In this document: piece by piece, positions 3,794 through 44,569 of the stretch
Layout: each line of letters opens with the position of its first letter
How positions within the stretch are numbered: the stretch's first letter is position 1
NCBI GenBank assembly: GCA_017443345.1
Contig: JAFSNR010000154.1
Location: 1 to 47,187 of the forward strand
From: Prevotella sp.
GTDB lineage: Bacteria; Bacteroidota; Bacteroidia; Bacteroidales; Bacteroidaceae
Length of the DNA stretch: 47,187 bases
Direction: 5' to 3'
The notes under the pieces: model-generated
What the model saw: the letters and a program-made list of their open reading frames with translations, nothing else
Told to the model about the DNA's origin: nothing
Database searches by the model: none
Made by a program: the position numbers and the translations under genes

Positions 3794-4456
3794 ATGAAGA
3801 CAGAAATCCGAATGATTCCTGTGAAACTGCTGGAGCAGAACAGGGGTCAGGTGAGCGGATTGCCAAAGAATCCGCGTTTCTTTCGTGACTATCGCTATGA
3901 GGCGATGGTGAAGAGCATGAGGGATTGTCCAGAGATGCTCGAACTGCGTGAACTGATAGTGTTCCCGAATGGTGAAAAGTTCGTCACCGTTTGCGGAAAC
4001 TTGCGTCTGAGAGGAGGCAGGGAGTTGGGATTGAAGGAGATGCCCTGCAAGGTGCTTCCAGCGGACACACCAGTGAAGAAGCTGTGCGAGTATGCGGCGA
4101 AGGACAACATCTCGTACGGAGAGGATGACATGGATATCATCAGCAACGAATGGGACAGAGAAATGCTCGAAGGTTGGGGATTTGAGTTTCCACAAGAGAA
4201 GGAGAAAGACCCCTTCAAGGAGCGTTTTGAAGCCATCAAGGATGATGATGCAGTGTACCCACTCATACCCAAGTACGATGAACGGCACGAGCTATTCATC
4301 ATCCAGAGCGGAAGCGAGGTTGACAGCAACTGGCTACGCGAACGGCTCGGGATGCAGAAGATGAAGTCCTACAAGACTGGGAAGCTGACCAAGAGTAACG
4401 TGATTGACATAAAGGATGTGCGCCATGCCCTTGAAGATCGTCATCCCAAGTCATAA
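3794..4456 (+). CDS. Second ParB-like (ParB/sulfiredoxin fold) protein
   Basis: 220 residues. The start IRMIPVKLLEQN..NPR and the motif VTVCGNLRLRGGRELGLKEMP match the ParB-like nuclease fold, with CGNLRLRG in place of GERRxRA. This variant often sits as the N-terminal part of phage DNA methylases (binding near the methylated site). Here it stands alone, with an acidic C-terminal half and no methylase domain. Its last 32 bases overlap the start of the glycosyltransferase-like gene, so the two are probably translationally coupled and work together. Confidence 0.75.
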   Translation: MKTEIRMIPVKLLEQNRGQVSGLPKNPRFFRDYRYEAMVKSMRDCPEMLELRELIVFPNGEKFVTVCGNLRLRGGRELGLKEMPCKVLPADTPVKKLCEYAAKDNISYGEDDMDIISNEWDREMLEGWGFEFPQEKEKDPFKERFEAIKDDDAVYPLIPKYDERHELFIIQSGSEVDSNWLRERLGMQKMKSYKTGKLTKSNVIDIKDVRHALEDRHPKS

Positions 4457-5177
4457 GCGTTGGGACAGGGTGTTCGCGAAGAACATAGTAGTGGACCCCA
4501 TCATCTGTGTTGCAGAGAGCCAGAAGGAGATGTACGAGCGTTACAACCCAGAGTGTGAGATAGTGACCCATCCCGATGACGTGATAGGCTTGATACCGAA
4601 ACGGAACTGGATGGCGAAGCACTTCGGGGAACTGTTCATGCTGGACGATGATGTGCATGCCTGCAAGTATCTGGCCGCAGTGCCAGGTGAGAAGACGGTG
4701 GTGAAGGATAAGGCGAAGGTGACGAGAATCATCAATGAGCTGTATGACCTCGCCTGTCTGCTTGACGTGCATGTGTTCGGCTTCACCTCTCGCATCAGTC
4801 CGATGATGTATGAAGAGAATGCGTGGCTTTCCCTGTCGAAGATGATAACCGGCTGCTCGTATGGTGTGAGGTGGAACAAGAACGTGTGGTGGAACGAGGA
4901 ACTGAAATTGAAGGAGGATTTCTGGATCAGCTGCTACATGAAGTACAAGGAACGGAAAGTTCTGACCGACCTGCGGTACTCGTTCTCCCAGAAAGACACG
5001 TTTGTGAACGCTGGAGGTCTGTCTGCCTTCAGGAACCAGGAAGAGGAGCGGCGGTGCATCATGCTCATCAGAAAGAACTTTGGTGAGAGCATTCGTCTGA
5101 AGGGAGTGACGAACAACGGAAAGGGTGTGACGAAGCAGATGGTTGAGTACAACATCAGCGTGAAATTTCCCTATTGA
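4425..5177 (+). CDS. TET-associated glycosyltransferase (TAGT)-like GT-A enzyme
   Basis: 250 residues from the ATG at 4425; MPLKIVIPSHKRWDR is a natural N-terminus, and the ATG three codons earlier is less likely. IVIPSHKRWDRV, the segment IVTHPDDVIGLIPKRNWM and the metal-binding LFMLDDDVHAC (a DxD-type motif) match the GT-A-fold glycosyltransferases of phages known as TET-associated glycosyltransferases. In known examples these add sugar to oxidised bases (such as 5-hydroxymethylcytosine) in phage DNA. The acceptor here is unknown: I see no TET/JBP dioxygenase, hydroxymethylase or sugar-nucleotide gene in the window. Coupling to a ParB-like gene supports a DNA-directed role. Confidence 0.7.
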   Translation: MPLKIVIPSHKRWDRVFAKNIVVDPIICVAESQKEMYERYNPECEIVTHPDDVIGLIPKRNWMAKHFGELFMLDDDVHACKYLAAVPGEKTVVKDKAKVTRIINELYDLACLLDVHVFGFTSRISPMMYEENAWLSLSKMITGCSYGVRWNKNVWWNEELKLKEDFWISCYMKYKERKVLTDLRYSFSQKDTFVNAGGLSAFRNQEEERRCIMLIRKNFGESIRLKGVTNNGKGVTKQMVEYNISVKFPY

Positions 5178-5211: not shown

Positions 5212-5811
5212 ATGAAACAGATTCAATTAAGTGTGCCCGACGGCAAACGTGTCGAGTGGCAAGAGGTGGATGGCAAGACCATTGCCGTCCTTGTGGACGA
5301 AGAAGTGAAAGACGATCGTCCAGTAACAGAACGCATCAAGACCTTTGAGGACGCTTGTGTAGCGTTGAAAAGAGCTGAAGCAGGTGACGAAACAGCTGGA
5401 GATTTGCTTGCCGACTATGAAAGCAACAGAGACAACATTTTATGTAAAGAGATGTTGGCTTGTATGAAGCTCTTCATCATCGTTGCTGCCCTCAATGAGG
5501 GTTGGGAACCGATGTTCGAGAAAGACGAGTACCGCTATTATCCTTGGTTCCGTCTATACACCAAAGATGAGTATGAGGAACTATCAGAGGAAGAGAAGGG
5601 GCGTGCTGTGCTCCGCTCTGGCAACAATACGTATGCGTACTACGGGGTCGTGTGCGTGAATGCGTACAGCGCTTCTTCGGGCTCGGGCTCGAACCTCGGT
5701 GCGCGCCTTGCATTTAGGACCCGTGAACTCGCATTATACGCAGGCGAGCAGTTCGCAGAGGAATTTGTCGACTTTATATTCAAGCCTCGTGACAACGAGG
5801 ATTCAGAATAG
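5212..5811 (+). CDS. DGR variable protein 1 (small, no visible signal peptide)
   Basis: 199 residues. The N-terminal part is acidic (MKQIQLSVPDGKRVEW, then KTFEDAC). A middle segment (IIVAALNEGWEP, YYPWFRLYTKDEYEELSEEE) leads into a variable segment at residues 130-166, which begins GRAVLRSGNN and ends GARLAF. A C-terminal helix (RELALYAGEQFAEEF) closes the protein. The family recurs in Bacteroidales; the variable part probably sits in a small C-type-lectin-like scaffold. Bases 5599-5710 match the DGR template 37 kb away, differing only at template adenines, so this is a target served in trans. No signal peptide or membrane segment is visible, so it should act in the host cytoplasm or be packaged. 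Its ligand is unknown. Confidence 0.85.
   Translation: MKQIQLSVPDGKRVEWQEVDGKTIAVLVDEEVKDDRPVTERIKTFEDACVALKRAEAGDETAGDLLADYESNRDNILCKEMLACMKLFIIVAALNEGWEPMFEKDEYRYYPWFRLYTKDEYEELSEEEKGRAVLRSGNNTYAYYGVVCVNAYSASSGSGSNLGARLAFRTRELALYAGEQFAEEFVDFIFKPRDNEDSE
5599..5710 (+). other. DGR variable repeat VR1 (distal target)
   Basis: This stretch aligns without gaps to 42948-43059. I count 13 differences, all where the template has A (changes to T, G or C). Hot codons are the template AAC/AAT codons, giving Tyr, Ser, Gly and Leu here. The first template adenines (in GGCAACAATACG) are unchanged in both variable repeats, as expected near the 5' edge. The shared end GGTGCGCGCCTTG is the probable initiation-of-mutagenic-homing region; sequences diverge right after it. 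Confidence 0.93.
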
Positions 5812-5839
5812 AAAGACTACAAATTAGAACGAAAAAGCG

Positions 5840-5928
5840 TAAATCGTTAGTAAACGTTAAGGCGCTAAAATGGTGAAGATTCTGTTTTCATACTTCGCCA
5901 TTTTTCACGAAATTTACAGATGAAAAGG
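5840..5928 (+). promoter_or_regulatory. Repeated promoter-like element, copy B (divergent)
   Basis: Second copy. GTTA half-sites lie 10 bp apart (the second at 5856-5859). TTTT replaces TTTG at 5885-5888, and GAAATTTA at 5909-5916 follows the invariant 20-bp spacer. This copy also has a strong hairpin: AAAATGGTGAAG at 5867-5878 pairs with 5893-5904 over 12 positions with one G-T wobble. It lies between the DGR target gene and the gene at 5940. Confidence 0.5.
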
Positions 5929-5939
5929 AGAGCAGGAAA

Positions 5940-6491
5940 ATGATAATACGAACTAAAAACGGATACGATTTTTTCGAGGTTTCATCGGCCATGCAGAAGG
6001 CTATAAGAAGAGCTGACACAGGCGTGGCTGGATTCTTCGCCCTTGAACTGTGGGAATCAGGATATAGGGACTACGTTTGGAAACGGTTGTTCACCATCAG
6101 CGCTGAAGACTGCTGGGGCCTCATCACAAAAGAGGTGGAGGCTTTATGGCAGGGACATGAGTTGGTGAACAAGAAAGCACCAGAGCCCAAAGGACGCATC
6201 TTTGTGAGCAAGGCAGTGATTCTGTTGTGCGAGTGCGCGAAGTGCAGGGATGCCGACCACCTCCAGAACTTCATCTATGACCGGAGGGATGTTGATGTCG
6301 AGCGTTGGATAAACGACGTGAGGCGATATCCTATTCCCATACCTCCATACACCTATGACGTGCATACGAGGAAGGGGAAGAAGATGGGCAGGACAAAGAA
6401 GGAGTTCTTCAAGGATGAACTGGAGGCGTTGCAGCCACGGATAAGGGGCTTGTTTGATGACCTTGTGGAGGAGGACGTTAGTAAAAGTTAA
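5940..6491 (+). CDS. RarA/MgsA C-terminal-like domain protein
   Basis: 183 residues. The stretch around MQKAIRRADTGVAGFFALEL, WESGYRDYVWKRLFTISAED and AVILLCECAKCRDADHLQNF resembles the all-helical tetramerisation/C-terminal region of RarA/MgsA clamp-loader-like ATPases. In those proteins the region follows an AAA+ motor and acts at stalled forks. No AAA+ domain (Walker A) is present here. Such free-standing domains are frequent in Bacteroidales phages. A role at the replication fork, perhaps by modulating the host RarA, is inference. It follows repeated element B by 11 bases, and its end lies inside element C. Confidence 0.6.
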   Translation: MIIRTKNGYDFFEVSSAMQKAIRRADTGVAGFFALELWESGYRDYVWKRLFTISAEDCWGLITKEVEALWQGHELVNKKAPEPKGRIFVSKAVILLCECAKCRDADHLQNFIYDRRDVDVERWINDVRRYPIPIPPYTYDVHTRKGKKMGRTKKEFFKDELEALQPRIRGLFDDLVEEDVSKS

Positions 6492-6552
6492 GGTGTGAAA
6501 ATGGCGAGGAATCTGTTTGCATTTCTCGCCATTTATGAAGAACTTTACAGTA
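6475..6552 (+). promoter_or_regulatory. Repeated promoter-like element, copy C
   Basis: Third copy. GTTA half-sites lie 10 bp apart, TTTG is at 6516-6519, and GAACTTTA at 6540-6547 follows 20 bp later. A perfect 10-bp inverted repeat flanks the TTTG: 6499-6508 (AAATGGCGAG) against 6525-6534 (CTCGCCATTT). Compared with copy B, both arms change (GGTGAAG/CTTCGCC to GGCGAG/CTCGCC), so pairing is kept. It lies ~40 bases ahead of the gene at 6591. Confidence 0.6.
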
Positions 6553-6590
6553 TAAATCAAATCAAATTTCAACCTAAAAAAGAAGAAAAG

Positions 6591-7334: not shown

Positions 7335-8063
7335 ATGAAACTGCAACACATTACATTTACGGGCATTGATGCCAGGACTGACATTAACGCCCTCGCGGCT
7401 ATTCAGTCCGAGTTCCCGATAGCGGAGTTTGGAGTGCTGACAAGTTATCACTGGCACGAGAATGGAAACCGCTATCTCAATCCAGAGCGCATCATCAAAC
7501 TGTGTGGCAAGGGCTTGAAGCTTGCACTTCACGTCTGCGGTTCTGCTGCTCACGATGCTGCCTGCAAGGGTGGCTGGGATAAAATCGACAAGTTGACAAT
7601 TGACAACCTTCATCTGTTCAAGCGCGTTCAATTGAACTTGGCTGAGCGTAAAGACAATCCAGAATACTGCTGGATTCCGCTCATAATTGGGCAGGAGTTG
7701 ATTATCCAGCAGCGTGCCGAGTTAGAGCTTCCACTGTTCGAGAGCACGGTGAAGCATTGGACAGAGAGGTCATACCCTCACCGCGACACTATCAGCGCAT
7801 TACTCGACAGCAGCGGTGGTCGTGGCATCGACATACCATTGAAGGTGTGGCCATCAAGTGGCAAGATTGGCTATGCTGGCGGTTTCAATCCCGACAACGT
7901 GGCAGACAAACTGTCGTTTTTGATGAGCCACGTCACGCAGGGCACGTTCTGGATTGACATGGAGAGCGGAGTCCGTACTGATGATTGGTTTGACATCGAC
8001 AAGGTGTACAAGGTACTACAGACGTGCAAGCCTATCATTGAAGAGTACAACAAGGAGGGCTGA
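7335..8063 (+). CDS. TrpF-like (phosphoribosylanthranilate isomerase-like) TIM-barrel protein
   Basis: 242 residues, close to TrpF length. ITFTGIDARTD and FPIAEFGVLTS at the start resemble strands 1-2 of this barrel. IGYAGGFNPDNVADKLSFLM followed by FWIDMESGVRT matches the TrpF end, where GGLNPxN binds phosphate and DxSSGVE carries the catalytic Asp (here DMESGVR). The catalytic Cys of TrpF is not clearly placed. Tryptophan synthesis is unlikely in a phage that carries no other trp gene. A sugar-phosphate or nucleobase-related reaction in the DNA-modification neighbourhood is possible but unproven. Confidence 0.6.
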   Translation: MKLQHITFTGIDARTDINALAAIQSEFPIAEFGVLTSYHWHENGNRYLNPERIIKLCGKGLKLALHVCGSAAHDAACKGGWDKIDKLTIDNLHLFKRVQLNLAERKDNPEYCWIPLIIGQELIIQQRAELELPLFESTVKHWTERSYPHRDTISALLDSSGGRGIDIPLKVWPSSGKIGYAGGFNPDNVADKLSFLMSHVTQGTFWIDMESGVRTDDWFDIDKVYKVLQTCKPIIEEYNKEG

Positions 8064-8545: not shown

Positions 8546-9021
8546 AGACATATTATTTGACATTATCGCAGGTGTTTCCTGTTACCCATCCGAGAGCCGG
8601 AGAGGAAACTCATTTCAAGGATTGGCTTGTCGGTGCCTTGTACTATGGAGCCACAAGTGGGAAAATACACACCATCAGAGCGAACTTCGAGCTTTGGAAA
8701 AAACGCTTTGAGGATATCTATGCAGGGAAGGCGTGTCTATCTGTTCGGTACTGGGAGGGTAAGCCTTACAGAAGCAAGCAGCATGAGATTGTGAGGCTGA
8801 CGAAAGATGATGGCATCGGCATACAGAAACTGGAGTTTCCTTTTGGCACGCTCGATGAAGCCATGATAGAAGATGCTGAACATGTCGGAATGTTTGGCGG
8901 CATCGCCCAAACGCTTGCAACAAACGACGGCCTTTCTCTCGAAGATTGGAAGGCATGGTTTCGTGGTTACGACATCACAAAGCCTCTCGCAATCATTCAT
9001 TTCACGAAATTCAGGTATTGA
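8542..9021 (+). CDS. ASCH-like domain protein
   Basis: 159 residues. LTLSQVFPVTHPRAGE, the segment KIHTIRANFELWKKRF and the later LSVRYWEGKPYRSKQHEIVRL match a family common in Bacteroidales phages whose KIHTIR...W...SVRxW pattern fits the ASCH/PUA-like fold. ASCH proteins bind RNA or modified nucleobases. Its position between the TrpF-like and Dam-like genes would suit a reader of modified nucleic acid, but no direct evidence exists. ATGA overlap with the previous gene. Confidence 0.6.
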   Translation: MKTYYLTLSQVFPVTHPRAGEETHFKDWLVGALYYGATSGKIHTIRANFELWKKRFEDIYAGKACLSVRYWEGKPYRSKQHEIVRLTKDDGIGIQKLEFPFGTLDEAMIEDAEHVGMFGGIAQTLATNDGLSLEDWKAWFRGYDITKPLAIIHFTKFRY

Positions 9022-9023
9022 TT

Positions 9024-9833
9024 ATGAAGACACCTATCACATATTACGGAGGCAAGCAGCAACTCGCATCTCAGATTATCGCGATGATACCTCAGCACAA
9101 GATATACTGCGAGCCATTCTTCGGAGGCGGTGCCGTATTCTTTGCGAAAGGACCGTCATTCTTGGAGGTCATCAACGACAAGAACGACCTTCTGATAACC
9201 TTCTACAAGCAATGTATGACCAACTTCGACGCACTCCAGCAGAAAATAACAACCACATTACATTCTGAATCCGAATACAACCGTGCGAAAAGGATATACA
9301 ACAGTCCCAAGTGGCACAAGAAAATCGATATCGCTTGGGCTGTGTGGATGGTCACCAACATGTCTGTGATGGGAACGCCACGGGGAGGATGGAAACGTGA
9401 CAATGGCTCTGGAGGCTCACACATCGGCATAGGAATGGAGAATTACAGGAGCGCATTCACGAAGCAGGTGCATAACCGACTGAAGCACGTTCAAATTTCA
9501 TGTCGCGGTGCCATCGATGTTATCCGAGAAAGAGATACTGCAGACACTTTCTTCTATCTTGACCCACCATATATCAACTGCGACCAGAAGCACTACAAGG
9601 GCTACACCACAAAAGACTTTCATGAGCTGCTGGAAACATTGAGCGGGATTCAGGGCAGGTTTGTCCTCAGCAATTTCTGGTCTGACATACTCGGTCAATA
9701 CATCGAGCGTCAGAAATGGAACTACAAGGTGATTGAAAGAAAGTGCATGATACCAGCAATGATTCAGCAACCTCGCCGAAAGAAGGAGGTGCTAACTTAC
9801 AATTTCGATATCGAACCAACATTATTTGATTGA
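9024..9833 (+). CDS. D12-class DNA adenine N6-methyltransferase (Dam-like)
   Basis: 269 residues from the ATG at 9024; the frame opens earlier, but MKTPITYYGGKQQLA is the standard D12 N-terminus. Motifs: the S-adenosylmethionine site TYYGGK and EPFFGGGAVFF, and the catalytic DPPY in FFYLDPPYIN. The end FDIEPTLFD resembles the short tail seen in related phage enzymes. It methylates adenine N6, commonly in short palindromes. In phages this protects DNA from host restriction or marks DNA for packaging or repair. No partner endonuclease is adjacent. Confidence 0.92.
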   Translation: MKTPITYYGGKQQLASQIIAMIPQHKIYCEPFFGGGAVFFAKGPSFLEVINDKNDLLITFYKQCMTNFDALQQKITTTLHSESEYNRAKRIYNSPKWHKKIDIAWAVWMVTNMSVMGTPRGGWKRDNGSGGSHIGIGMENYRSAFTKQVHNRLKHVQISCRGAIDVIRERDTADTFFYLDPPYINCDQKHYKGYTTKDFHELLETLSGIQGRFVLSNFWSDILGQYIERQKWNYKVIERKCMIPAMIQQPRRKKEVLTYNFDIEPTLFD

Positions 9834-10994: not shown

Positions 10995-11090
10995 ACGTCA
11001 GCAAATGTTAAGGTGGTAAAATGGCGGTAAAATGGTGAAGTTTTCGTTTGCATATCTTGTTAAAAATGAAGAACTTTACAGTAGAAAATT
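10991..11090 (+). promoter_or_regulatory. Repeated promoter-like element, copy D, with an 11-bp insertion
   Basis: Fourth copy. GTCA and GTTA (second at 11007) lie 10 bp apart, TTTG is at 11047-11050, and GAACTTTA at 11071-11078 follows 20 bp later. A short stretch (GGTAAAATGG) is doubled, adding 11 bp between the GTTA site and TTTG: 40 bp here against 29 bp in the other four copies. One helical turn is thus added, keeping the same face. It lies ~40 bases ahead of the gene at 11122. Confidence 0.6.
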
Positions 11091-30599: not shown

Positions 30600-30680
30600 A
30601 AAGGTGTTAATTTAGGAGTTGTTTGGGATTTTGATTACAAATAAGGCTTTGTGTTTGTTCGGTGGACATGCAATCTGTAC

Positions 30681-30765
30681 AAAATGTCAGCAAATGTTAA
30701 GGTGTTAAAATGGTGAAGTTTCTGTTTGTTTATCTCGCTAAAAATGAAGAACTTTACCGTAGAAA
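30681..30765 (+). promoter_or_regulatory. Repeated promoter-like element, copy E
   Basis: Fifth copy and closest to the consensus with copy A: GTCA and GTTA (second at 30696) 10 bp apart, TTTG at 30725-30728, 20 bp, GAACTTTA at 30749-30756. It lies between the divergent sigma-factor pair and the gene at 30802, whose leader begins soon after. Confidence 0.6.
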
Positions 30766-34493: not shown

Positions 34494-37400
34494 ATGACAA
34501 GTACTGAGAAGCAAGAGATTATTGACGCGGTCATTGCCGGACTGCGTACAAACAGTGTACAGATAACAGACCTGACAGAGGTCTCTTCTGCTCCTTCCGA
34601 TGCTTACATTGAGTTGAGCGGTGGCAGACGTGTTCTTGTGAGCAACCTTGTGACGGCTGTGGTTGCTCAGCTGGAAGGTGGCAACGTGACATCCACCATG
34701 CTTGCCGATGCCTGTGTCACTGCCGCGAAGATTGCCACGGGTGCGGTGACGGCTGACAAGATAGGTTCAGGTGCAGTGGGGACGGAAAAGATAGCCGACG
34801 GTGCTGTTACAGCCGCGAAGCTGGCGGCAGAGTCTGTGACCTTGGCGAAGATTGCCGCAGCCGCTTTTGGCTCTGTGGCTTCAGGGAACACAGGACTTGT
34901 GAAGGGTGGTGATGTATATTCGGCGATTGCAGCTGAAATCCAAGCACGGCTGGAGGCAGAAGCCGCATTACGGACTGCGGATGGCTTATTGCAGGAAGCG
35001 ATTACAGCAGAAGCCAGAGTTCGCCAGGAGGCAGAAGCCGCATTACGGACTGCGGATGGCTTATTGCAGGAAGCGATTACAGCAGAAGCCAGAGTTCGCC
35101 AGGAGGCAGACACTGCATTGCAGAATGCGATTACGGCATTGAGAAGTGGTGGTTCAACCGATGCCATCGAGAACTTCAATGAAGTGATAGCGTTCCTTGT
35201 CGGCATAGATGACACCCAGACGCTTGCAGGGCTTTTGTCTGACATCAACGATGCGATTTCTTCTCTTGAAGACAGCGTTTTCAGCTGCTTGAAGTTCGTT
35301 CCCTTCGATAATGTCGTTGACAATGTTTCCTTGGAGGAAGGTTCCACCACTGATGTACGGCACATCGTGTATGACGGGACACGGAAGATGTTTCTCGCAG
35401 CCATCTATCAGGAAGACGAGGCTCCCAAGTATTACCGCACGTTCATCAACATGGCAGACTATATGGACGTGGATAACGGTGGAATCCGCTGTGACCGCAT
35501 TTTCTACCATACCACACTACATGAATCTTATCGGTCTGTTGATGGCGAAGACATTGTCCCCATGGGTGTAACGCATAAGGAACTGAACGATTCTCTTTAC
35601 GGCCTGAGCGAGACGTTGGGCGGACTGATTGAAGCAGAAGCCACCGCTCGTGAAAACGCAGACGGTGGGTTGCAGGGGCAAATCGACGCACACGGCACTC
35701 GTATCGGTGCACTTGAGGATGCCATGAGTTCCATGTCCAGCGTTGCTGGTATCTACAATGTGACGAATGAAATACCTGTGCAGGGATACTACGTGCTGTG
35801 CGATGCGCAGAACCCGACACTTTCCGCTGTGCATGCCGTATGGAACGCAGAGATGGCTCTGAGTGGTCTGATTATCTCATTCGAGATTAGTGCTGGTATC
35901 TGGAAGACTTATCAGTACATCGGAAGGACGGTGACTGAAGTGAACTGGAAGAACGCTGACAACTGGAAGGACTTCGGTTCGTTGGCTGCTGGCAGTGAGA
36001 CGTACATCATCATCGACGAGATGATTGGTGCTCCTGTCGCAGGTGAATACTACACGCTGGAGAGTGCTGTGGCAAGGCTTGTCGCCTACCAGAGGGACTC
36101 TGGTGTAACCTACGCAAAGAAAGGACTCATCATCTCTTATCGAACAGGTGAGAACGTCATGGAGACAAAGCAGTTCCAAGGCGAAATCACCGACTTTGGC
36201 GTTGTAGGCTTGTGGAAGGACTTCGGCGGTGGAGGTTCTGAGGTCGAGACGAGCGATGAGCCAGAAGAGGACGGAGAGGATGCTTTCTCGACAGGTGGCG
36301 CATACAACCTGCTGCCCACAGGCATCAAGGTGGATACTGAGACAGAAGGTGTGGTGAAGCTGCAACTGGAGAACGCGGAAGGAGAAGGATTGGGCGATGA
36401 AATTCAGTTCTCCGTCGGAACAGGTGGCGGTGGAGGTAGCGGCACCATCGTGTCTATGGCCTTCCAGACCTCGCCCATGTACGGCAATGCCGGCAGTGAC
36501 TTCATCTTGAGGGCAGCTGTCCGTTCCGTAACCACAGTCGGCTCCACGGAGCAGGATAACACCATCGCCACGATTGACCTGTATGACCGTGACACCAACC
36601 TGATGCTGGAGCGATTCACGTTCAACCTGCCATCCTCTGCGTCGATGGAGACATACACCTTCGTGATGGATGTGAGCAAGTATTTCACCAGTGCTGGTGT
36701 CCGCAGGTTCAAGTGTCTTGTGACCGACGATGCTGGCAACACTGGTTCTCGCAACATCAACGTGACCGCTGTTGACGTGACGGTTCAGAGCGTTCAGACG
36801 TTGCAGTACACCCAAAGCACTGCGCTTATTGTCGGTGGCAACGCGAAGAGCATTCCCTTCTATCAGTTTCCGAGAAATGTGAGTGACCGAGGTATCACCG
36901 CCATCACGGAGATTTATCTGAATGGCCAGTGGCGTGAGCTGGGTCGTGCCGTCATCACGGACTCCTATTCCCATAGCATCACGATAGACCCGACGAACTG
37001 CCTTGGCTCTGTGCTCCTGCATGGTGCATACCCCATCCGTGTGCATGGTGTGGACGTGTCTTCTGGCGTTGTGGGCAATTACCTCTATTCGGGCATCTTC
37101 GTGATTAACGAGAGCAGCACCGCGCCTCTTGTCGTGGAGAGCTGGACGAGCGCAGGAGCGAACGCTTCCGTGAAGCTGTACGAGACCATCACCGTGAACT
37201 ATGCTGTGTATGACCCGACAAGCAATGCTCCCACCGCCACCGTCTATCTGGACGGCACAGCTGACCAGAGCCATATCGCTTACCGTTCTTCTGCCTACAC
37301 CTACACTCATCAGGTGTCAGGCGTGGCGTATGACGGCACCTTCTCCCATATCGTGAAGGTTGGATGCGGAGCGGCATACGGTGTTGAAGCCACATTCCTT

Positions 37401-40400
37401 GTGAGCGGAACAGTCATCGATGCCCTGTTGAAGGCTGGTGCCATCTACGGATTTGACTTCGCCAACCGAAGCAATGACGAGGCAGACCACACCATCACCA
37501 ACAATGGCTATGAGATTACCGTGAACGGCTCGAACTGGAGCACGACGGGCTTCAAGATGTTCCTTGGAGAGAAGGCATTGAGAATCGCAGAGGACGTGAC
37601 CGCCTCTCTCGATCATCAGCCGTACAACCGTGTTTCCATCGAGAGCACGGGTATGGCAGTGCAATTCGCATTCGCATCGGCAAACCTCGTCGATGATGAT
37701 GCGGTGCTGATGTCTTGCTTCAATGAGGGTGTCGGTGCTGGATTCTTCGTGACTGGCCGTCATGTCGGCATCTACTGCTCGACGGGTCTTTCCAATCAGG
37801 TAGAGCAGCGAGCCTACAAGCAGGGCGAGAAGGTGACTGTTGCGGTTGTTGTTGAACCTGCAGCAGAAGGTCTCGGCCAGACTCGTGCCGGAACCACCTA
37901 CTATTTCATCAAACTGTATCTGAATGGTGAGGAAGTCGCTGTCATTGGCTATGTGGCAGGTCAGAGCAACCTCATCCAGAACAAGAACATCACGTTTGAT
38001 GGAACGTATGGTGATTTCTACCTGTACTACATCTTGGCATGGGACGATTACTTCCAGTTCGACCAGGCATTCCAGAACTACCTCGTGAAGTTGACCGACA
38101 CAGGCAACATGGTTGTCGAGTACAACAATGAGGATGTGATGGCATCGCAGCAGGTGACAGAGCAGGATGTGACCACCACCAAGCTCCGTCCGCAGGCATC
38201 AGAACTTGCAGAGCGTGGCATGGCTTACATCATCGAGTGTCCGTACAACAATTCCGACATCGAGGCGCTGGACAACACCACCAGCACGAAGCAGAACAAC
38301 TATGTGACGCTGTACTACATCGACCCTGCAAGACCTTGGACAAACTTCGTCGCAAGGGATGTGAGAAGAAGGAATCAGGGTACCACTTCCGCCAAGCGTC
38401 CCGTGAAGAACCCACGCTACTACCTGGCACAGAAGAACGGCTCCACCTATGACAAGACCAGCAAGACGGGTGGCACAACGATTGAGCTGCTGAACCCAGA
38501 CAACACCACCGAGGCAGGACGCAGGGCTATTGCTCTTGCAGCCATCAACAAGGTGCAGATCCACGATGACAGCATCCCAGTCGATATCATCACGGTGAAG
38601 GTTGACTACTCCGACAGCTCGAACGCCAACGACTGCGGTGTGTGCGACCAGATGAACGCCACCTTCAGAGCCTTGGGACGCAACTACATGACACCGGCAC
38701 AGCGTGCCTATGACGGTACCTGGAAGAAGGGAACTGTGGAACTTGACGGACTTGTGATGAATCACTCGACCGCCAACATACCGATTGCGATGTACCGCTC
38801 CAAGAGCGACATGGGCAGCAGTCCGTACTTCCACGCCAAGGGCAACTGGAAGGAAGACAAGAAGGAGCAGGTGGCACTCGGTTTCAACGATGTGCCTGGT
38901 TACAACAAGGGCTGTCTGAATTATGGTGATTTCGTTGAGTTCTACGGCAAGAGTGCAGCCATGCTCAATGCAGATGCGGAAGCATACAACGAAGCGAACC
39001 ATCTGTCGGAGGGTGACGAGGGCTATAAGCCTACTAATAGAACAACCGACGAAACCCTTACCGAAAGCATGGATCGATTCATCCACACCACTGGACTTGA
39101 CACCGCCAAGACGTATGTGCTCACCCTGTACTGCGGCACGTCGTACAAGGTGATGAAGCACAACGGAACGTCATGGGTTGAGCAGACAGGCTCGATGGTT
39201 CAGAACGCCAACGGCAAGTGGACTGTCACTGGCTCTGTTGTCAATCCTGTGGAGGGATTTGAGTTGTTGAACTATCAGGGCATGGACTGGTTCAAGGGTG
39301 TCAGCACCGTTGCCGACCTGATGGCTCCGAGCACCTCGTTCTCGAAGTGGGTGCAGGCCCTCATCGATGATGGTGACATCTCCGCTGAGACCGTTCCTGC
39401 ATGGACTTACTATTTCGAGTCCCTTGTCGATGATGATGACCTCGCCATCGCTTACGCTCTCGGAAAGAAGGTTCCTTATAACCTGTTCCGCTGGATGCAG
39501 TTCTGTGACAGCTGTGACTGGGATACCTACCACAGCACAGATGGTGACGGTGGCACTGCAAGACTGAACAGATGGAAGACCGACCTGTACAAGTATGCCT
39601 CTCCTCATTCTTGCTTCGCTTACGACATCTTCACCGACTATGATGCTGCCGTCGATCAGCGAGCCAAGAACATGCAGCCTATGTGGTTCCTTGAGGACGG
39701 CTGTAAGATTGTGAACGGTGTTTACTACAATGCAGACGATGAGGCGAACGACACGACAACGGGAATGCTCGCCATGCGCATGTACCTCAACAAGGTGTAT
39801 GACTGCGACTCCTGTAACGGAAAGGAAAATGAAGGTGGTCAGACTGTCGATGCAGAGGTTGACCCGAACAAGCTCCCAGACGAGCAGACGGGTTACACCA
39901 ACCCATACGCAGGTTACAATTCGGTCCTGTTCCGTAACATGTACCTCCAGCAGACGGTGTATGTGGATGCCAACAACACGGAGCTGTCGTTGCGCACGGT
40001 TGCATCAGCCATGAGAAGCTGCACCACCACCGTAAGCGGTGTGACCTTGAAGCCGTTCTCCCCAGACGGAGCACTTTACTTCTTCGTCGATTCACGCATC
40101 AAGCGTTGGCAGAAGAAAGTGTCTTCATACGATGGAGAGCGTAAGTACATCGACTTCACTGCGACATCAGATGCCATCTACTTCTATGCTCTGCAGGGTC
40201 TCGGACTGACTTCGCTTCCTGCATTCATCGAAAGAAGGTGGCGCATCCGTGACGGCTTCTACGGCACTGGCGACTTCTTCAGCGGAGTCCTCTCCGGTCG
40301 TGTGAACGCTCCGAGCGGTGCGAAGATACGCATCACAGCTGCCAAGACTGGCTATTTCGGCATCGGTAATGACAGTTCGGGCTCTTTGTCTGAAAGTGTC

Positions 40401-42812
40401 TATCTGGAGGCTGGCGAGAGCCACAACTTCACGAACTTCTCCCATGAGGAAGGTGCGTTGCTGTACATCTACCAGGCAGACCGCATGTCGATGATTGACC
40501 TCTCCGAAATCACGCTGTCGAACAACTTCGACTTCTCCGTGATGACGTTGGTCGAGGAAATCTACATCGGCAAGGTCGGGAAGGTGAACCTCACCATTGG
40601 AGCCTACACGCTGTTGACCAACCTCAACCTCGGAGAACTGCCGTTCTTGAAGAAGCTCGATGTGAGGGAAACGCTCATCACGAACGTGGTGTGCAGCGGT
40701 TGCCCACGTCTGGAGAGCCTGTATGCAGCAGGAAGCCAATTGGCGAGAGCAGACATTGCGGATGGTGCCAAGGTGACGTACATGCAGCTGCCGGCGACGT
40801 ATGAATATCTGAAACTGCGCTACCTTCCCAATCTGACGATGGGCGGGCTTGTTCTCGCTGACCCGTCGAGCGTGAAGACGCTGATTGTGGAGAACTGCAC
40901 GAAGATTGATGCTTACACGCTGTTGCAGACCGTGGCAGGTTCTTCGGGCAGCCGCCTCAGCGTGGTGCGTGCCCTCCCAATTGCCGCAAGCGGTAACGGA
41001 AACGATCTCGCCACATGGGTGTCACTCAACATGACCGGTCTTGACGTGAACTTGAACGCTCAGAGTGCTCCAGCCATCGACGGAACGTACATGCTGACCA
41101 AGTATGCCGACGCATCTGTGCTTGCTTCTTGGCAGGCTGCATTGTCAGAGCTCACCATCCATCAGGCGCAGTACACGATGATTGAGTACGATGACGCAGA
41201 GGCAAACGGCTATGACGGCAACATCCGCAACCTTGACAACAACACCAAGGATGGTGTGGGCAGCGGATACGCCCATAGCGGTCACATCAGCATCATCTAC
41301 AACCGTTTGCACATGTACAGCGGCATCTATGACGAGCAGAACAACAAGATGCTTCTCAAGCAGGTGAGTGACGAGGACTACCGATATCTTGCGAATGGCA
41401 ATGCCGTTGACGTTCGAGACGGCGACGGTATGGGTCGTGACTTCTACCTCGGACTCGTGCATTATTGGTACAAGGGCATCAATGACCACCTGCACCAGAA
41501 GAAGTACGTTGCCTTCTCATCTCTGAACGATGAGCCTCTGAGCACATCGAGCGTGGTGAGGAGAAAGACGAATGCGCAGGCTCTGCTTGTTGCTGGCAAG
41601 GCTGTCCAGCTCAGCAACTTCAATGTGGGTGACACGTTCGACGTGGCGAACCTCTCGACGAACTCATCCAACAACGTCTGCAGCATGGACGTGAGCGGCA
41701 TGAGGCAGGTGCGTTGGACGGGCGTGAGCAGTCCATACCTCGGTGCCATCTTCCTTGATGCAGACGGGAAGGTTCAGAGTACTGTTCAGACGTACATCAC
41801 GAACGTGAACAGCGACTTCATCCTTGGCGAATATCTGTTTGTGTCCGTTCCAGACGGAGCCTCAACGTTCGTCTTCACCTGTCCTATCAACTTCGACAGC
41901 CACGAGTGTATCGCAGTTGACAGCAGCGAGATTGAAGCCATAGAACCAGACTGGGTGGAGCATGACTTTGAGCTGATTGGCACATACATGGCCAGTATCG
42001 ATGTGCTGTCGCGCATGCGCTCCATCGCTGGCAAAACTCCGTTGAGAGGAAACGGAACCTCATCGACCGCATCCGGCTGGACTTATGACAGCAACGGCAA
42101 CGTGACGAATCAGGATGTGCCGACCATCAACAACTACACCTGCAAGGACTTGCTGAACTTGGCAAGGATGCGTGGTAACGGGTTCTTCTGCATGGACTAT
42201 GAGCAGCATAAGGATATCGCTAACTTGTGGATGGCAGTTCACGGAAGAAGGAACTCTCAGGCTGTGAACGGTGACGGTGTGAACGCTGGTACTGCCACTG
42301 GCGGTACTGACCTCGCAGCGAGCCCATCTCCACGCCGTGAGACCAGCACTGGAAGACCACGCACTATGTGTCTCGAGGATTTGTGGGGCAACTTGTCAGA
42401 GTGGATGGATCATGTTGCAGTGAATGTGACATCGTTCGCCGCCTACTACAAGAACAAGTCGCAGGCTCCTACGGGCAGTACCGCAGACTATATCTTTCGC
42501 ATCCAAATGCGTGACGGTTCCGAGCGTGCCGTGCAGAGCCTTGCAGGTCAGGCGGAAATATGCCGTGTGAGGAACGGACGCTTTGCAGACCTTGTACCAA
42601 GTAAATTCTACAGCAACAGTAATTACGATGACTATTATTGTGACTACGGTGGCGTAGTGGCAGAAACTGGGCGTGCTGTGCTCCGCTCTGGCAACAATAC
42701 GAATGCGAACTTCGGGGTCGTGTACGTGAATGCGTTCAGCGCTTCTTCGAGCTCGTACGCGCACAGCGGTGCGCGCCTTGCCTTCAGGGGAAGATACGAA
42801 ATTACGGATTGA
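34494..42812 (+). CDS. Giant tail fibre/adhesin, DGR variable protein 2
   Basis: 2772 residues. In order: a helical start; GAVTADKIGSGAVGTEKI-like repeats (~70-135) as in trimeric fibre spirals; two perfect 25-residue repeats (~153-203) and coiled coil; a glycine-rich linker (~640); beta-sandwich domains to ~980; a LamG-like domain (~980-1160); a long segment of unknown fold to ~2000, with Cys/Asn/Asp-rich parts; a leucine-rich-repeat-like section (~2000-2130); and from ~2500 a C-type-lectin (formylglycine-generating-enzyme-like) fold with CLEDLWGNLSEWMDH, RNGRF and the variable segment GRAVLRS...GARLAF (2726-2762). It binds the host surface, and the DGR retunes its tip. The protein is exceptionally long for a siphophage fibre. 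Confidence 0.88.
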   Translation: MTSTEKQEIIDAVIAGLRTNSVQITDLTEVSSAPSDAYIELSGGRRVLVSNLVTAVVAQLEGGNVTSTMLADACVTAAKIATGAVTADKIGSGAVGTEKIADGAVTAAKLAAESVTLAKIAAAAFGSVASGNTGLVKGGDVYSAIAAEIQARLEAEAALRTADGLLQEAITAEARVRQEAEAALRTADGLLQEAITAEARVRQEADTALQNAITALRSGGSTDAIENFNEVIAFLVGIDDTQTLAGLLSDINDAISSLEDSVFSCLKFVPFDNVVDNVSLEEGSTTDVRHIVYDGTRKMFLAAIYQEDEAPKYYRTFINMADYMDVDNGGIRCDRIFYHTTLHESYRSVDGEDIVPMGVTHKELNDSLYGLSETLGGLIEAEATARENADGGLQGQIDAHGTRIGALEDAMSSMSSVAGIYNVTNEIPVQGYYVLCDAQNPTLSAVHAVWNAEMALSGLIISFEISAGIWKTYQYIGRTVTEVNWKNADNWKDFGSLAAGSETYIIIDEMIGAPVAGEYYTLESAVARLVAYQRDSGVTYAKKGLIISYRTGENVMETKQFQGEITDFGVVGLWKDFGGGGSEVETSDEPEEDGEDAFSTGGAYNLLPTGIKVDTETEGVVKLQLENAEGEGLGDEIQFSVGTGGGGGSGTIVSMAFQTSPMYGNAGSDFILRAAVRSVTTVGSTEQDNTIATIDLYDRDTNLMLERFTFNLPSSASMETYTFVMDVSKYFTSAGVRRFKCLVTDDAGNTGSRNINVTAVDVTVQSVQTLQYTQSTALIVGGNAKSIPFYQFPRNVSDRGITAITEIYLNGQWRELGRAVITDSYSHSITIDPTNCLGSVLLHGAYPIRVHGVDVSSGVVGNYLYSGIFVINESSTAPLVVESWTSAGANASVKLYETITVNYAVYDPTSNAPTATVYLDGTADQSHIAYRSSAYTYTHQVSGVAYDGTFSHIVKVGCGAAYGVEATFLVSGTVIDALLKAGAIYGFDFANRSNDEADHTITNNGYEITVNGSNWSTTGFKMFLGEKALRIAEDVTASLDHQPYNRVSIESTGMAVQFAFASANLVDDDAVLMSCFNEGVGAGFFVTGRHVGIYCSTGLSNQVEQRAYKQGEKVTVAVVVEPAAEGLGQTRAGTTYYFIKLYLNGEEVAVIGYVAGQSNLIQNKNITFDGTYGDFYLYYILAWDDYFQFDQAFQNYLVKLTDTGNMVVEYNNEDVMASQQVTEQDVTTTKLRPQASELAERGMAYIIECPYNNSDIEALDNTTSTKQNNYVTLYYIDPARPWTNFVARDVRRRNQGTTSAKRPVKNPRYYLAQKNGSTYDKTSKTGGTTIELLNPDNTTEAGRRAIALAAINKVQIHDDSIPVDIITVKVDYSDSSNANDCGVCDQMNATFRALGRNYMTPAQRAYDGTWKKGTVELDGLVMNHSTANIPIAMYRSKSDMGSSPYFHAKGNWKEDKKEQVALGFNDVPGYNKGCLNYGDFVEFYGKSAAMLNADAEAYNEANHLSEGDEGYKPTNRTTDETLTESMDRFIHTTGLDTAKTYVLTLYCGTSYKVMKHNGTSWVEQTGSMVQNANGKWTVTGSVVNPVEGFELLNYQGMDWFKGVSTVADLMAPSTSFSKWVQALIDDGDISAETVPAWTYYFESLVDDDDLAIAYALGKKVPYNLFRWMQFCDSCDWDTYHSTDGDGGTARLNRWKTDLYKYASPHSCFAYDIFTDYDAAVDQRAKNMQPMWFLEDGCKIVNGVYYNADDEANDTTTGMLAMRMYLNKVYDCDSCNGKENEGGQTVDAEVDPNKLPDEQTGYTNPYAGYNSVLFRNMYLQQTVYVDANNTELSLRTVASAMRSCTTTVSGVTLKPFSPDGALYFFVDSRIKRWQKKVSSYDGERKYIDFTATSDAIYFYALQGLGLTSLPAFIERRWRIRDGFYGTGDFFSGVLSGRVNAPSGAKIRITAAKTGYFGIGNDSSGSLSESVYLEAGESHNFTNFSHEEGALLYIYQADRMSMIDLSEITLSNNFDFSVMTLVEEIYIGKVGKVNLTIGAYTLLTNLNLGELPFLKKLDVRETLITNVVCSGCPRLESLYAAGSQLARADIADGAKVTYMQLPATYEYLKLRYLPNLTMGGLVLADPSSVKTLIVENCTKIDAYTLLQTVAGSSGSRLSVVRALPIAASGNGNDLATWVSLNMTGLDVNLNAQSAPAIDGTYMLTKYADASVLASWQAALSELTIHQAQYTMIEYDDAEANGYDGNIRNLDNNTKDGVGSGYAHSGHISIIYNRLHMYSGIYDEQNNKMLLKQVSDEDYRYLANGNAVDVRDGDGMGRDFYLGLVHYWYKGINDHLHQKKYVAFSSLNDEPLSTSSVVRRKTNAQALLVAGKAVQLSNFNVGDTFDVANLSTNSSNNVCSMDVSGMRQVRWTGVSSPYLGAIFLDADGKVQSTVQTYITNVNSDFILGEYLFVSVPDGASTFVFTCPINFDSHECIAVDSSEIEAIEPDWVEHDFELIGTYMASIDVLSRMRSIAGKTPLRGNGTSSTASGWTYDSNGNVTNQDVPTINNYTCKDLLNLARMRGNGFFCMDYEQHKDIANLWMAVHGRRNSQAVNGDGVNAGTATGGTDLAASPSPRRETSTGRPRTMCLEDLWGNLSEWMDHVAVNVTSFAAYYKNKSQAPTGSTADYIFRIQMRDGSERAVQSLAGQAEICRVRNGRFADLVPSKFYSNSNYDDYYCDYGGVVAETGRAVLRSGNNTNANFGVVYVNAFSASSSSYAHSGARLAFRGRYEITD
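34952..35101 (+). repeat. Perfect 75-bp tandem duplication in the fibre gene
   Basis: Bases 34952-35026 and 35027-35101 are identical and code for two copies of EAEAALRTADGLLQEAITAE plus five more residues. A third, partial and changed unit follows. Exact identity at the DNA level indicates a recent duplication, lengthening the coiled-coil stalk by 25 residues. Confidence 0.9.
42665..42780 (+). other. DGR variable repeat VR2 (adjacent target)
   Basis: Aligns without gaps to the template 42944-43059. I count 10 differences, all at template adenines (A to T five, to G four, to C one). Encoded changes include Asn to Phe, Ser, Tyr and His. Just beyond the shared GCGCGCCTTG, target and template differ at non-adenine positions as well, marking the end of the homing region. 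Confidence 0.94.
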
Positions 42813-42943: not shown

Positions 42944-43059
42944 AACTGGGCGTGCTGTGCTCCGCTCTGGCAACAATACGAATGCGAACAACGGGGTCGT
43001 GTACGTGAATGCGAACAACGCTTCTTCGAACTCGAACACGAACAACGGTGCGCGCCTTG
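42944..43059 (+). repeat. DGR template repeat (TR)
   Basis: 116 bases; not needed as a protein. Read in the target frame it codes GRAVLRSGNNTNANNGVVYV then NANNASSNSNTNNGARLDF: AAC/AAT codons stand at every variable position, as in other DGRs, where adenines are randomised. It matches VR2 over its whole length and VR1 from 42948. The end differs from both targets after CTTG (GATTTC against GCNTTY), fitting an IMH* versus IMH distinction. Confidence 0.95.
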
Positions 43060-43201: not shown

Positions 43202-44569
43202 ATGAAGCCTGAAGGCATGAACGCCGAAATTGTTTACCCTCTTGACCATCTCATACCGGAAATCGTCAGCGATGATAACATGTATGAGAGTTTCGATTAC
43301 GTGATAGACCATCTGGAGAATGGTCATCAGAAAGAGATATACAGACCTCTGCGAGAAAAGATTGTGGCGATGCTGCAAGACGAAATCAGCAGGGGTGTTT
43401 TTCGTATCCTCCCATCTGACGTGAGGCAGATTCATGTAACCGACGGCCCCAAGGAGCGTGATGTACAAGCTCCGCGAGTCATCAAGCGTGTCGGTTGTCA
43501 CGCCATCATGGTGATAGTGGAGAAGTACACCTATCCGACGCTCATCAAGAACACTGGAGCTTCCATCAAGGGAAGAGGGATGCACTGGCAGCACCACCTC
43601 ATAGAGGAAGACCTACGGAATGTACCGCTGATGATGCAGTATTATTACCAGAACGACATCGAGCATTTTTATGACAACATCAGTCAGGAGCGTATGAAAG
43701 AGCTTATACGGGAGTTCATATCAGATGCTTTGCTGTTGCCCATTCTTGACAGCTTCATCACACTTTTGCCACAAGGTCTGTCGAAGGGGTTGAGGAGTTC
43801 GCAGTGCTTTGCCAATCTTTATCTTTCTGTTGTCGATCATGTGATGTGCGAGCATGTGCTGAAGTATGAGCATGAGGGTGAGTGCCGATATCTATACGAC
43901 AGGTATTGTGATGATGTAGTGATGTGGCATTACGACAAGAAGGAGTTGTGGAAACTGGGAGACCTGTATGTGAAAGAGGTAGCGAAACTGGGATTGAGTG
44001 TGAAGGAAAGTGAGGCAGTGCGTCCCATCAGCGAGGGTCTTGACCATCTTGGGTATGTGCATTACGGAGACCATTCGCTGTTGCGGAAGCGGACGAAGAA
44101 GAATACGGCAAGAAAGCTCGCCAAGGTGAAGTCAAGAAAGCGGAGGCAGCAGATTATCGGGTCGTTCAAAGGGATGGCTTACCATGCTGATTGTATTCAT
44201 CTATATTATATATTAACAGGTCAACACATGAAGAAGTTTAGCGAAATGGGTGTGGTTTACACGCCAGCCGATGGGAAGAAGCGCTTCCCTGGAAAGACAA
44301 TGCGCATGAGTGCATTGCAGAACAAGGTGATAGAGATTCACGATTACGAGACAGGCATCAAGACGGAGCATTCGAAGGGTGACGATGACAGATACCTCGT
44401 CAGTTTCAGGGATGTTCAAACAAAGGAATGGGGCAAGTTCTTCACGGCCAGCGAGGAGATGAAGAGCATTCTCGACCAAATCAGTGACATTGAGGACGGA
44501 TTCCCATTCGAGACAACTCTTGTGAGTGAGGTCTTCGACGGCAACAAGGTGAAATACAAATTTACATGA
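43202..44569 (+). CDS. DGR reverse transcriptase with C-terminal extension
   Basis: 455 residues from the ATG at 43202; a TTG at 43169 and an ATG at 43217 are alternatives. Palm motifs: NDIEHFYDNIS (first catalytic Asp, ~152), LPQGLSKGLRSSQ (the SQ that marks DGR enzymes, ~201) and YDRYCDDVVMW (YCDD, ~235-238). The thumb ends in a Lys/Arg tract (KVKSRKRRQQIIGSFKGMAY). About 110 further residues (FSEMGVVYTPADGKKRFPGK, the strand IEIHDYETGIKT and FPFETTLVSEVFDGNKVKY) form an extra beta-rich domain resembling small Bacteroidales phage proteins. It copies the TR RNA into adenine-mutated cDNA for both targets. Confidence 0.93.
   Translation: MKPEGMNAEIVYPLDHLIPEIVSDDNMYESFDYVIDHLENGHQKEIYRPLREKIVAMLQDEISRGVFRILPSDVRQIHVTDGPKERDVQAPRVIKRVGCHAIMVIVEKYTYPTLIKNTGASIKGRGMHWQHHLIEEDLRNVPLMMQYYYQNDIEHFYDNISQERMKELIREFISDALLLPILDSFITLLPQGLSKGLRSSQCFANLYLSVVDHVMCEHVLKYEHEGECRYLYDRYCDDVVMWHYDKKELWKLGDLYVKEVAKLGLSVKESEAVRPISEGLDHLGYVHYGDHSLLRKRTKKNTARKLAKVKSRKRRQQIIGSFKGMAYHADCIHLYYILTGQHMKKFSEMGVVYTPADGKKRFPGKTMRMSALQNKVIEIHDYETGIKTEHSKGDDDRYLVSFRDVQTKEWGKFFTASEEMKSILDQISDIEDGFPFETTLVSEVFDGNKVKYKFT

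Follow-up and report, generated by a model that had tools for sequence, protein, structure and literature searches.

The window analyzed here, a stretch of 47,187 nucleotides that makes up one entire contig of a 4.2-Mb bacterial assembly, carries what is, judging by its sequence, almost certainly a diversity-generating retroelement (DGR) with two recipients, a tail gene and a small early gene. The features concerned, all on the forward strand, are as follows.

4416..5177, +, neighboring gene for a glucosyltransferase-like protein, of DNA-modification type by family name (phrog_842, E 5.7e-44)
5212..5811, +, second target gene, an ORF coding for 199 aa (phrog_11581, E 1.4e-47)
5599..5710, +, VR1, variable repeat with 13 differences from the template repeat, all at A, and variable among relatives
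5704..5719, +, 3' end of VR1 with a recipient-type homing signature (C at 5711, A at 5716)
8946..9833, +, neighboring gene for a DNA methyltransferase (phrog_56, E 4.6e-56)
34494..42812, +, first target gene, an ORF with profile matches coding for a 2,772-aa tail-type protein
42669..42780, +, VR2, variable repeat at the C-terminus of the tail gene, with 10 differences from the template repeat, all at A
42948..43059, +, TR, the template repeat, 112 bases including 27 A, mostly in AAC/AAT codons
43084..43217, +, RT-3 RNA (Rfam RF03068; 59.4 bits, gathering threshold 40.5)
43202..44569, +, DGR reverse transcriptase (RT; phrog_1423, E 1.9e-77), with a YCDD site

The first ATG of the RT gene is ∼140 bases 3' of TR, and a DGR-type RT thus adjoins the template. 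The C-terminus of the RT is a phrog_19665 domain (E 2.4e-16), which in a related contig (L036) is encoded apart from the RT, by a 98-aa ORF that follows it, and is possibly a fused accessory factor; no Avd-like gene was found among the subset of window ORFs that was scanned. The final 256 residues of the tail protein match phrog_14959 (E 3.4e-44) and the tail protein family phrog_5302 (E 7.3e-11). Two further features of this region are the RT-3 RNA, which sits between TR and the RT gene and overlaps the RT start, tying RF03068 to the DGR spacer, and, close to where the tail gene begins, three repeats of 75 bases each (34923-35147).

Two recipients of one template

VR1 lies 37 kb from TR and aligns with it ungapped, differing at 13 of 112 positions, all 13 at template A, as the initial annotation had counted and as is confirmed here to the base. 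The probability of 13 random changes all landing on the 27 template A of the 112 bases is 5.9e-10 (hypergeometric). VR2 likewise differs from TR at 10 positions, 10/10 at A. Identity to TR collapses on either side of the 112 bases of VR1, and a repeat search of the window recovers TR, VR1, and VR2 as one family; with the 600-base gene as the query (E 0.001), no further copies were found in the window's assembly beyond the gene itself, VR2, and TR. The 3' recipient signature of DGR repeats functions in homing, and just past base 112 there are two bases that VR1 and VR2 have in common and that differ in TR; recipient-type 3' differences of like kind, often more numerous, are present in many relatives. 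A hairpin just 3' of VR1 was also considered as a coding homing element and was rejected, its folding energy being similar to that of synonymous shuffles: over 160 distinct family segments the mean z was −0.38, with 8% below −2, and the window scored +1.1.

The 199-aa protein has its variable segment in mid-protein, followed by ∼30 more residues with a predicted helix, and the phrog_11581 profile covers residues 29 to 191. Searches with the protein gave no Pfam family (including the Tad2-like domain, PF11195), no NCBIfam family, and no PADLOC match. Sequence searches against the PDB gave weak matches only (best E 0.034), a Foldseek search of the PDB with the first AlphaFold model gave no match at E 0.001, and Foldseek at the same threshold against a viral library gave five matches, all to uncharacterized proteins; the variable residues, around which the initial annotation suggested looking for a C-type-lectin core, fall below pLDDT 50 in both AlphaFold models and did not give a confident fold. 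The N-terminus of the protein is not hydrophobic (19-residue windows starting at residues 1 to 22 reach a hydropathy of 0.04 at best), in agreement with the earlier remark that no signal peptide is visible, but this says little about location, because phage tail proteins likewise lack one. It does have one hydrophobic stretch, residues 76 to 94 (mean 2.03, above the usual membrane threshold), which falls within a helix predicted by AlphaFold and from which the window protein may be membrane associated. The window protein is an outlier in this respect, as only 4 of 87 aligned relatives reach 1.6 and the family median is 1.08.

Comparison with close relatives indicates that VR1 is an active recipient and not a relic, as far as can be read from its sequences. 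The relative designated L153, from a Bacteroidaceae assembly of sheep colon, has 90% protein identity and its own RT, template, and second repeat. Its template differs from that of the window at 7 of 105 bases, none of them at A, and all seven differences are mirrored in both its VR1 and its VR2, a pattern that repeated overwriting by the template would produce; the remaining differences between L153 and the window, 21 in VR1 and 13 in VR2, are all at template A. Outside the repeat, the gene is 97.7% identical to that of the window on the 5' side and 91.1% on the 3' side. A second relative (L001, a fragment in which no RT was found) has 22 differences from VR1 of the window, of which 16 fall at A positions of the window's template.

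The same behavior is seen on a finer scale in six records resembling LoVEphage, which, like BT-TP2 discussed below, is a public record with a Bacteroides host. The template is identical in all six, and in 14 of the 15 pairwise comparisons VR1 differs at 12 to 20 sites, every one at template A; in the fifteenth, the gene is identical, so that this population test comprises six phage records of which two have the same gene. The clearest pair, MW660583 and OY731433, has 20 differences in VR1 and none at the 472 other sites of the gene. VR2 could be read in five of the six records; each of the 10 pairs shows 12 to 19 differences, of which no more than one per pair is not at A. VR1 and VR2 are, on these sequences, both overwritten repeatedly within the lineage. 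The A-specific variation of VR1 that the initial annotation proposed looking for in related phages is thus present (20 differences against 0/472 in the LoVEphage-like pair; 21 at A in L153), and the invariant VR1 that would have refuted its idea is seen neither in the LoVEphage-like records nor in L153. No LoVEphage relatives were found in the viral_contigs set, and a search of 299 genomes of the window's genus (its own genome included), drawn from a larger group, yielded no second, near-identical copy of the gene.

The phrog_11581 family and its templates

The second target belongs to a widespread family. All 54 proteins of one family alignment (A1) match phrog_11581, and Pfam and NCBIfam searches over 87 and 54 relatives gave single weak matches only. 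Pattern scans of viral contigs returned 153 and 297 relatives, of which 80 were retained from each scan, and a further 68 relatives are in genome contigs, most of them labeled Bacteroidota, from Prevotella to Flavobacterium, with five in assemblies labeled Firmicutes. In a comparison of 87 relatives, the residues flanking the variable segment are conserved, and the reading frame is kept.

An RT was found in 23 of 40 viral records and then in 25 of 30 further records; many of the records in which it was not found (17/40 and 5/30) are fragments. In 47 of these 48 RT-bearing records (22/23 and 25/25), the family gene is matched by a template next to the RT, with mismatches almost exclusively at A. 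The count includes records closely related to each other, and the sole exception is a record of the first set, L037, for which no template match was found. The RT-anchored scan tolerates mismatches at A by design, and its totals of 553 differences at A and 19 at other bases are therefore biased and include homing-site bases. Two controls bear on this. With another base tolerated in place of A, the number of records matched fell from 35/35 to 4 (G), 1 (C), and 0 (T), and the nonvariable 5' part of the gene gave a template match in 0/35. With trimmed repeats in 33 records, including the window, VR1 differs from the template at 407 of 801 template A and at 12 of 2,250 other bases.

Records whose variable segment resembles that of the window (the long form) have a second repeat beside the RT in 33 of 35 cases, the exceptions being L286 and L291, with no second repeat in the RT locus. 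The family gene and the RT are well separated, by 9.5 to 76 kb (linear distance) in 33 long-form viral contigs. The initial annotation regarded diversification of a second, nontail target as unusual, and this assessment does not stand, since pairing of the family with the template is the rule among the relatives examined (47/48 RT-bearing records) and the idea of a hypervariable target in counter-defense has already been published.

A second arrangement, with a shorter variable segment, was sought in nine contig sets, of which G028 (no template) and G036 were excluded; one of the remaining seven, G038, was covered over 40,000 of its 43,017 bases. Each of these seven short-form contigs has one template, with two repeats near the RT in six and three in one, and the scan (allowing ≤5 non-A differences) found no repeat away from the RT in any of the seven. 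In three of them (G027, G033, and G030), the near-RT repeats read as tandem family genes. In L036, which is among the seven, the family genes come after genes for a Mu-like transposase, a transposition protein, and an ATPase, and a Mu-like transposase is also present in L204, which lies outside the seven. In its short form, the DGR thus seems, as judged from these contigs, to serve the phrog_11581 family alone. This arrangement makes a passive or a purely tail-related role unlikely, although the gene context comes from two contigs.

Two observations on the distribution and assembly of the family may be added. Matches to phrog_11581 occur in 13 of 200 genomes of the window's genus (its own included), some of the weaker ones covering the repeat segment only, and in one relative (L010, 8444-8974) the contig continues from the family gene with an Asn-rich end that resembles the template, probably through an assembly jump between repeat and template.

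Gene neighborhoods and published systems

In the window, the 199-aa gene is preceded by the glucosyltransferase-like gene and followed by a gene with a weak ATPase-type match. The surrounding region codes for ParB-like, HNH, and methyltransferase proteins and lies upstream of the terminase and head genes; profile searches assigned no function to many of the neighbors. The location is consistent with the earlier reading of the second target as a nontail protein set 37 kb from the template in an early, DNA-modification region, and the glucosyltransferase-like and methyltransferase neighbors fit such a region. Two other features of the window's genes are of note. An early protein encoded at 7335-8063 has a match to phosphoribosylanthranilate isomerase (PF00697; 28.5 bits, weak but above the cutoff), and a repeated element of ∼93 bases is present in five copies (1616-1708, 5833-5925, 6464-6556, 10995-11087, and 30673-30765), with 48 invariant columns and each copy located just before or overlapping an ORF start. 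Several similar stretches are present in L001, and the element looks like a repeated leader or promoter-type signal.

The neighborhoods of relatives are varied. In BT-TP2, the family gene comes directly after integrase, repressor-type, and HTH genes; it is unannotated and spans the record ends (L138 20001-20357 and L144 1-330). In LoVEphage, where the template is 16 kb away, its neighbors are methyltransferase genes, a Lar-like gene, and a tRNA ligase. Of 50 records, 20 have a gene of the N6/N4 methyltransferase family, which scores above the curated cutoff in 14. Among these 20, the methyltransferase gene is within 5 kb of the family gene in 9 records, where 4.3 would be expected (P = 0.012), and within 12 kb in 18, where 9.4 would be expected; the expected values assume uniform placement, and any gene of the early region might exceed them. 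A Tad2-like (anti-Thoeris) domain is present in 4 of the 50 records. In one of these, L015, the Tad2-like domain (E 5.5e-11) forms an in-frame fusion with the family gene, and a methyltransferase gene is next to it. The fusion gene is matched by a template of its own, from which it differs at 18 sites, every one an A, and this fusion is found in one record only. In another, L008, a separate Tad2-like gene is directly upstream of the family gene and a methyltransferase gene directly downstream, and the remaining two Tad2-like domains are 3.0 kb and 11.7 kb from the family gene.

Distant second targets of DGRs are not without precedent, and a nontail second target located near counter-defense genes is already published, so that the window adds one more case. 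In the description of Quimbyvirus (Benler 2021, PMC8008677), a second, distant, and apparently nonstructural DGR target lies in a defense-like island. The window is similar, with its second recipient far from the RT in a nonstructural, counter-defense-like region, but the contig is smaller and the tail target is 2,772 aa. Because LoVEphage has a matching neighborhood that contains the family gene, the second target of Quimbyvirus is probably, by analogy, a member of phrog_11581. A 2025 survey (PMC12629997) describes four species of inducible prophage in which a distal second VR lies close to counter-defense genes; the arrangement and its authors' reading are the same as here, and the accessible text names no protein family.

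Two other systems are more distant in kind. Bacuni phages (PMC8143477) have two targets, one of them distant from the RT, but both are fimbrial-tip-like with the repeat at the 3' end, whereas the distant repeat in the window is mid-gene and the 199-aa protein aligns with the tail target over the repeat only. In the tentaclin phages nd4 and nd12 (PMC10743442), one template serves two unlike proteins with a common variable hairpin, but both targets are in one cassette, and the tentaclins carry Ig-like domains and an N-terminal lectin. The 199-aa protein has no Pfam match, and its modeled secondary structure leaves no room for Ig-like domains. Roux and colleagues state that their survey was unable to see distant targets. 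Our literature search found no naming of phrog_11581 as a DGR target, and the family may be described under another name or in supplements. What is new here is the single family behind the second target, its breadth, the concerted-evolution test, the short form, and the Tad2 fusion.

Role of the second target

The second target probably has a nontail role. The likeliest such role is in counter-defense, which we consider to have about an even chance of being correct, and for which the early position, the nearby methyltransferases, and the one in-frame Tad2 fusion provide circumstantial support. Early action within the cell and binding of a partner that varies among hosts are suggested by this position, by the fusion, and by the short form with no distant repeat. 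In the explanation we favor, TR is copied, as the sequences show, with changes at A both into VR2 and, 37 kb away, into VR1; transfer would occur through mutated cDNA made by the RT, as in known DGRs, and homing of the cDNA would use the 3' signature. The early protein would be intracellular and not part of the virion, its variable segment would form an exposed binding surface, and its binding partner would be something within the host cell that varies fast, most likely part of a defense system. The phage could then retune both adsorption and a postentry interaction with one machine. We hold this explanation as a whole, a two-recipient DGR together with an intracellular early binder, most likely of a defense component, with moderate confidence.

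Phage DGRs are usually explained by adsorption. One unnamed family recurs here as the second, and sometimes apparently the sole, DGR target across Bacteroidota phages, and the scrambling of the same two targets in many related phages suggests, on sequence comparison, that something within the cell is reshaped in addition to adhesion. A remark on a few phages thereby becomes a testable general claim, that phages evolve intracellular binders in real time. More tentatively, phrog_11581 proteins could be early intracellular proteins with a DGR-randomized surface directed at a moving target in host immunity, with one template tuning both adsorption and defense evasion in many Bacteroidota phages and the DGR serving the family alone in some transposable phages. 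If so, phrog_11581 would be the phage-side counterpart of an adaptive receptor.

A rather less likely reading is that the protein works inside the cell on something other than defense, binding a variable factor of the host or of a prophage, such as one involved in replication or transcription, an immunity regulator, or a competing phage. Its early position beside regulators in BT-TP2 and the replication and transposition neighbors in L036 fit with this, but the Tad2 fusion and adjacency and the proximity of methyltransferases point to defense, and such rapid variation is not what one would expect of a core replication factor.

It is unlikely that both targets serve adsorption, with the second, too, being part of the virion or an adhesin, for instance a small accessory receptor-binding or capsid-decoration protein with an early-placed gene. 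The published two-target phages (Bacuni, PMC8143477; tentaclins, PMC10743442) have lectin-fold adhesins as both targets. The variable segment here is also common to the tail protein, and hhalign of the family against the tail domain gives 98.4% probability, but only the 43-residue variable segment is aligned, so that the targets share an exchangeable surface and little else visible to the comparison. Over 33 records, the letters of VR1 and VR2 agree slightly more often within a record than across records (119/253, or 0.470, against 0.388; P = 0.011), as a common ligand would give, and in LoVEphage-like records agreement is 0.50 against 0.35 (rank 7 of 120). This sharing within a phage is weak; the repeats were cut by a rough pattern that over-shortened a few of them, and templates differ among records, making the cross-record control inexact. 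A stronger figure (agreement at 204 of 352 sites changed in both repeats, or 0.58, compared with 0.46 across records; P = 0.0007) was discarded, as its excess lies in the last fifth of the repeat and is inflated by fixed homing-site bases opposite template A. Against a shared role in adsorption, the genes read for context are in early, methyltransferase-rich or transposition regions, and no repeat was found away from the RT in the seven short-form contigs.

Finally, DGR homing depends on the recipient sequence, and a chance copy of a homing site could in principle be overwritten without function, but that VR1 is such a passive hitchhiker is highly improbable given the pairing of family and template in 47/48 RT-bearing records, the finding of no repeat outside the RT neighborhood in the seven short-form contigs scanned, and the intact frame and conserved flanking residues over 87 relatives.
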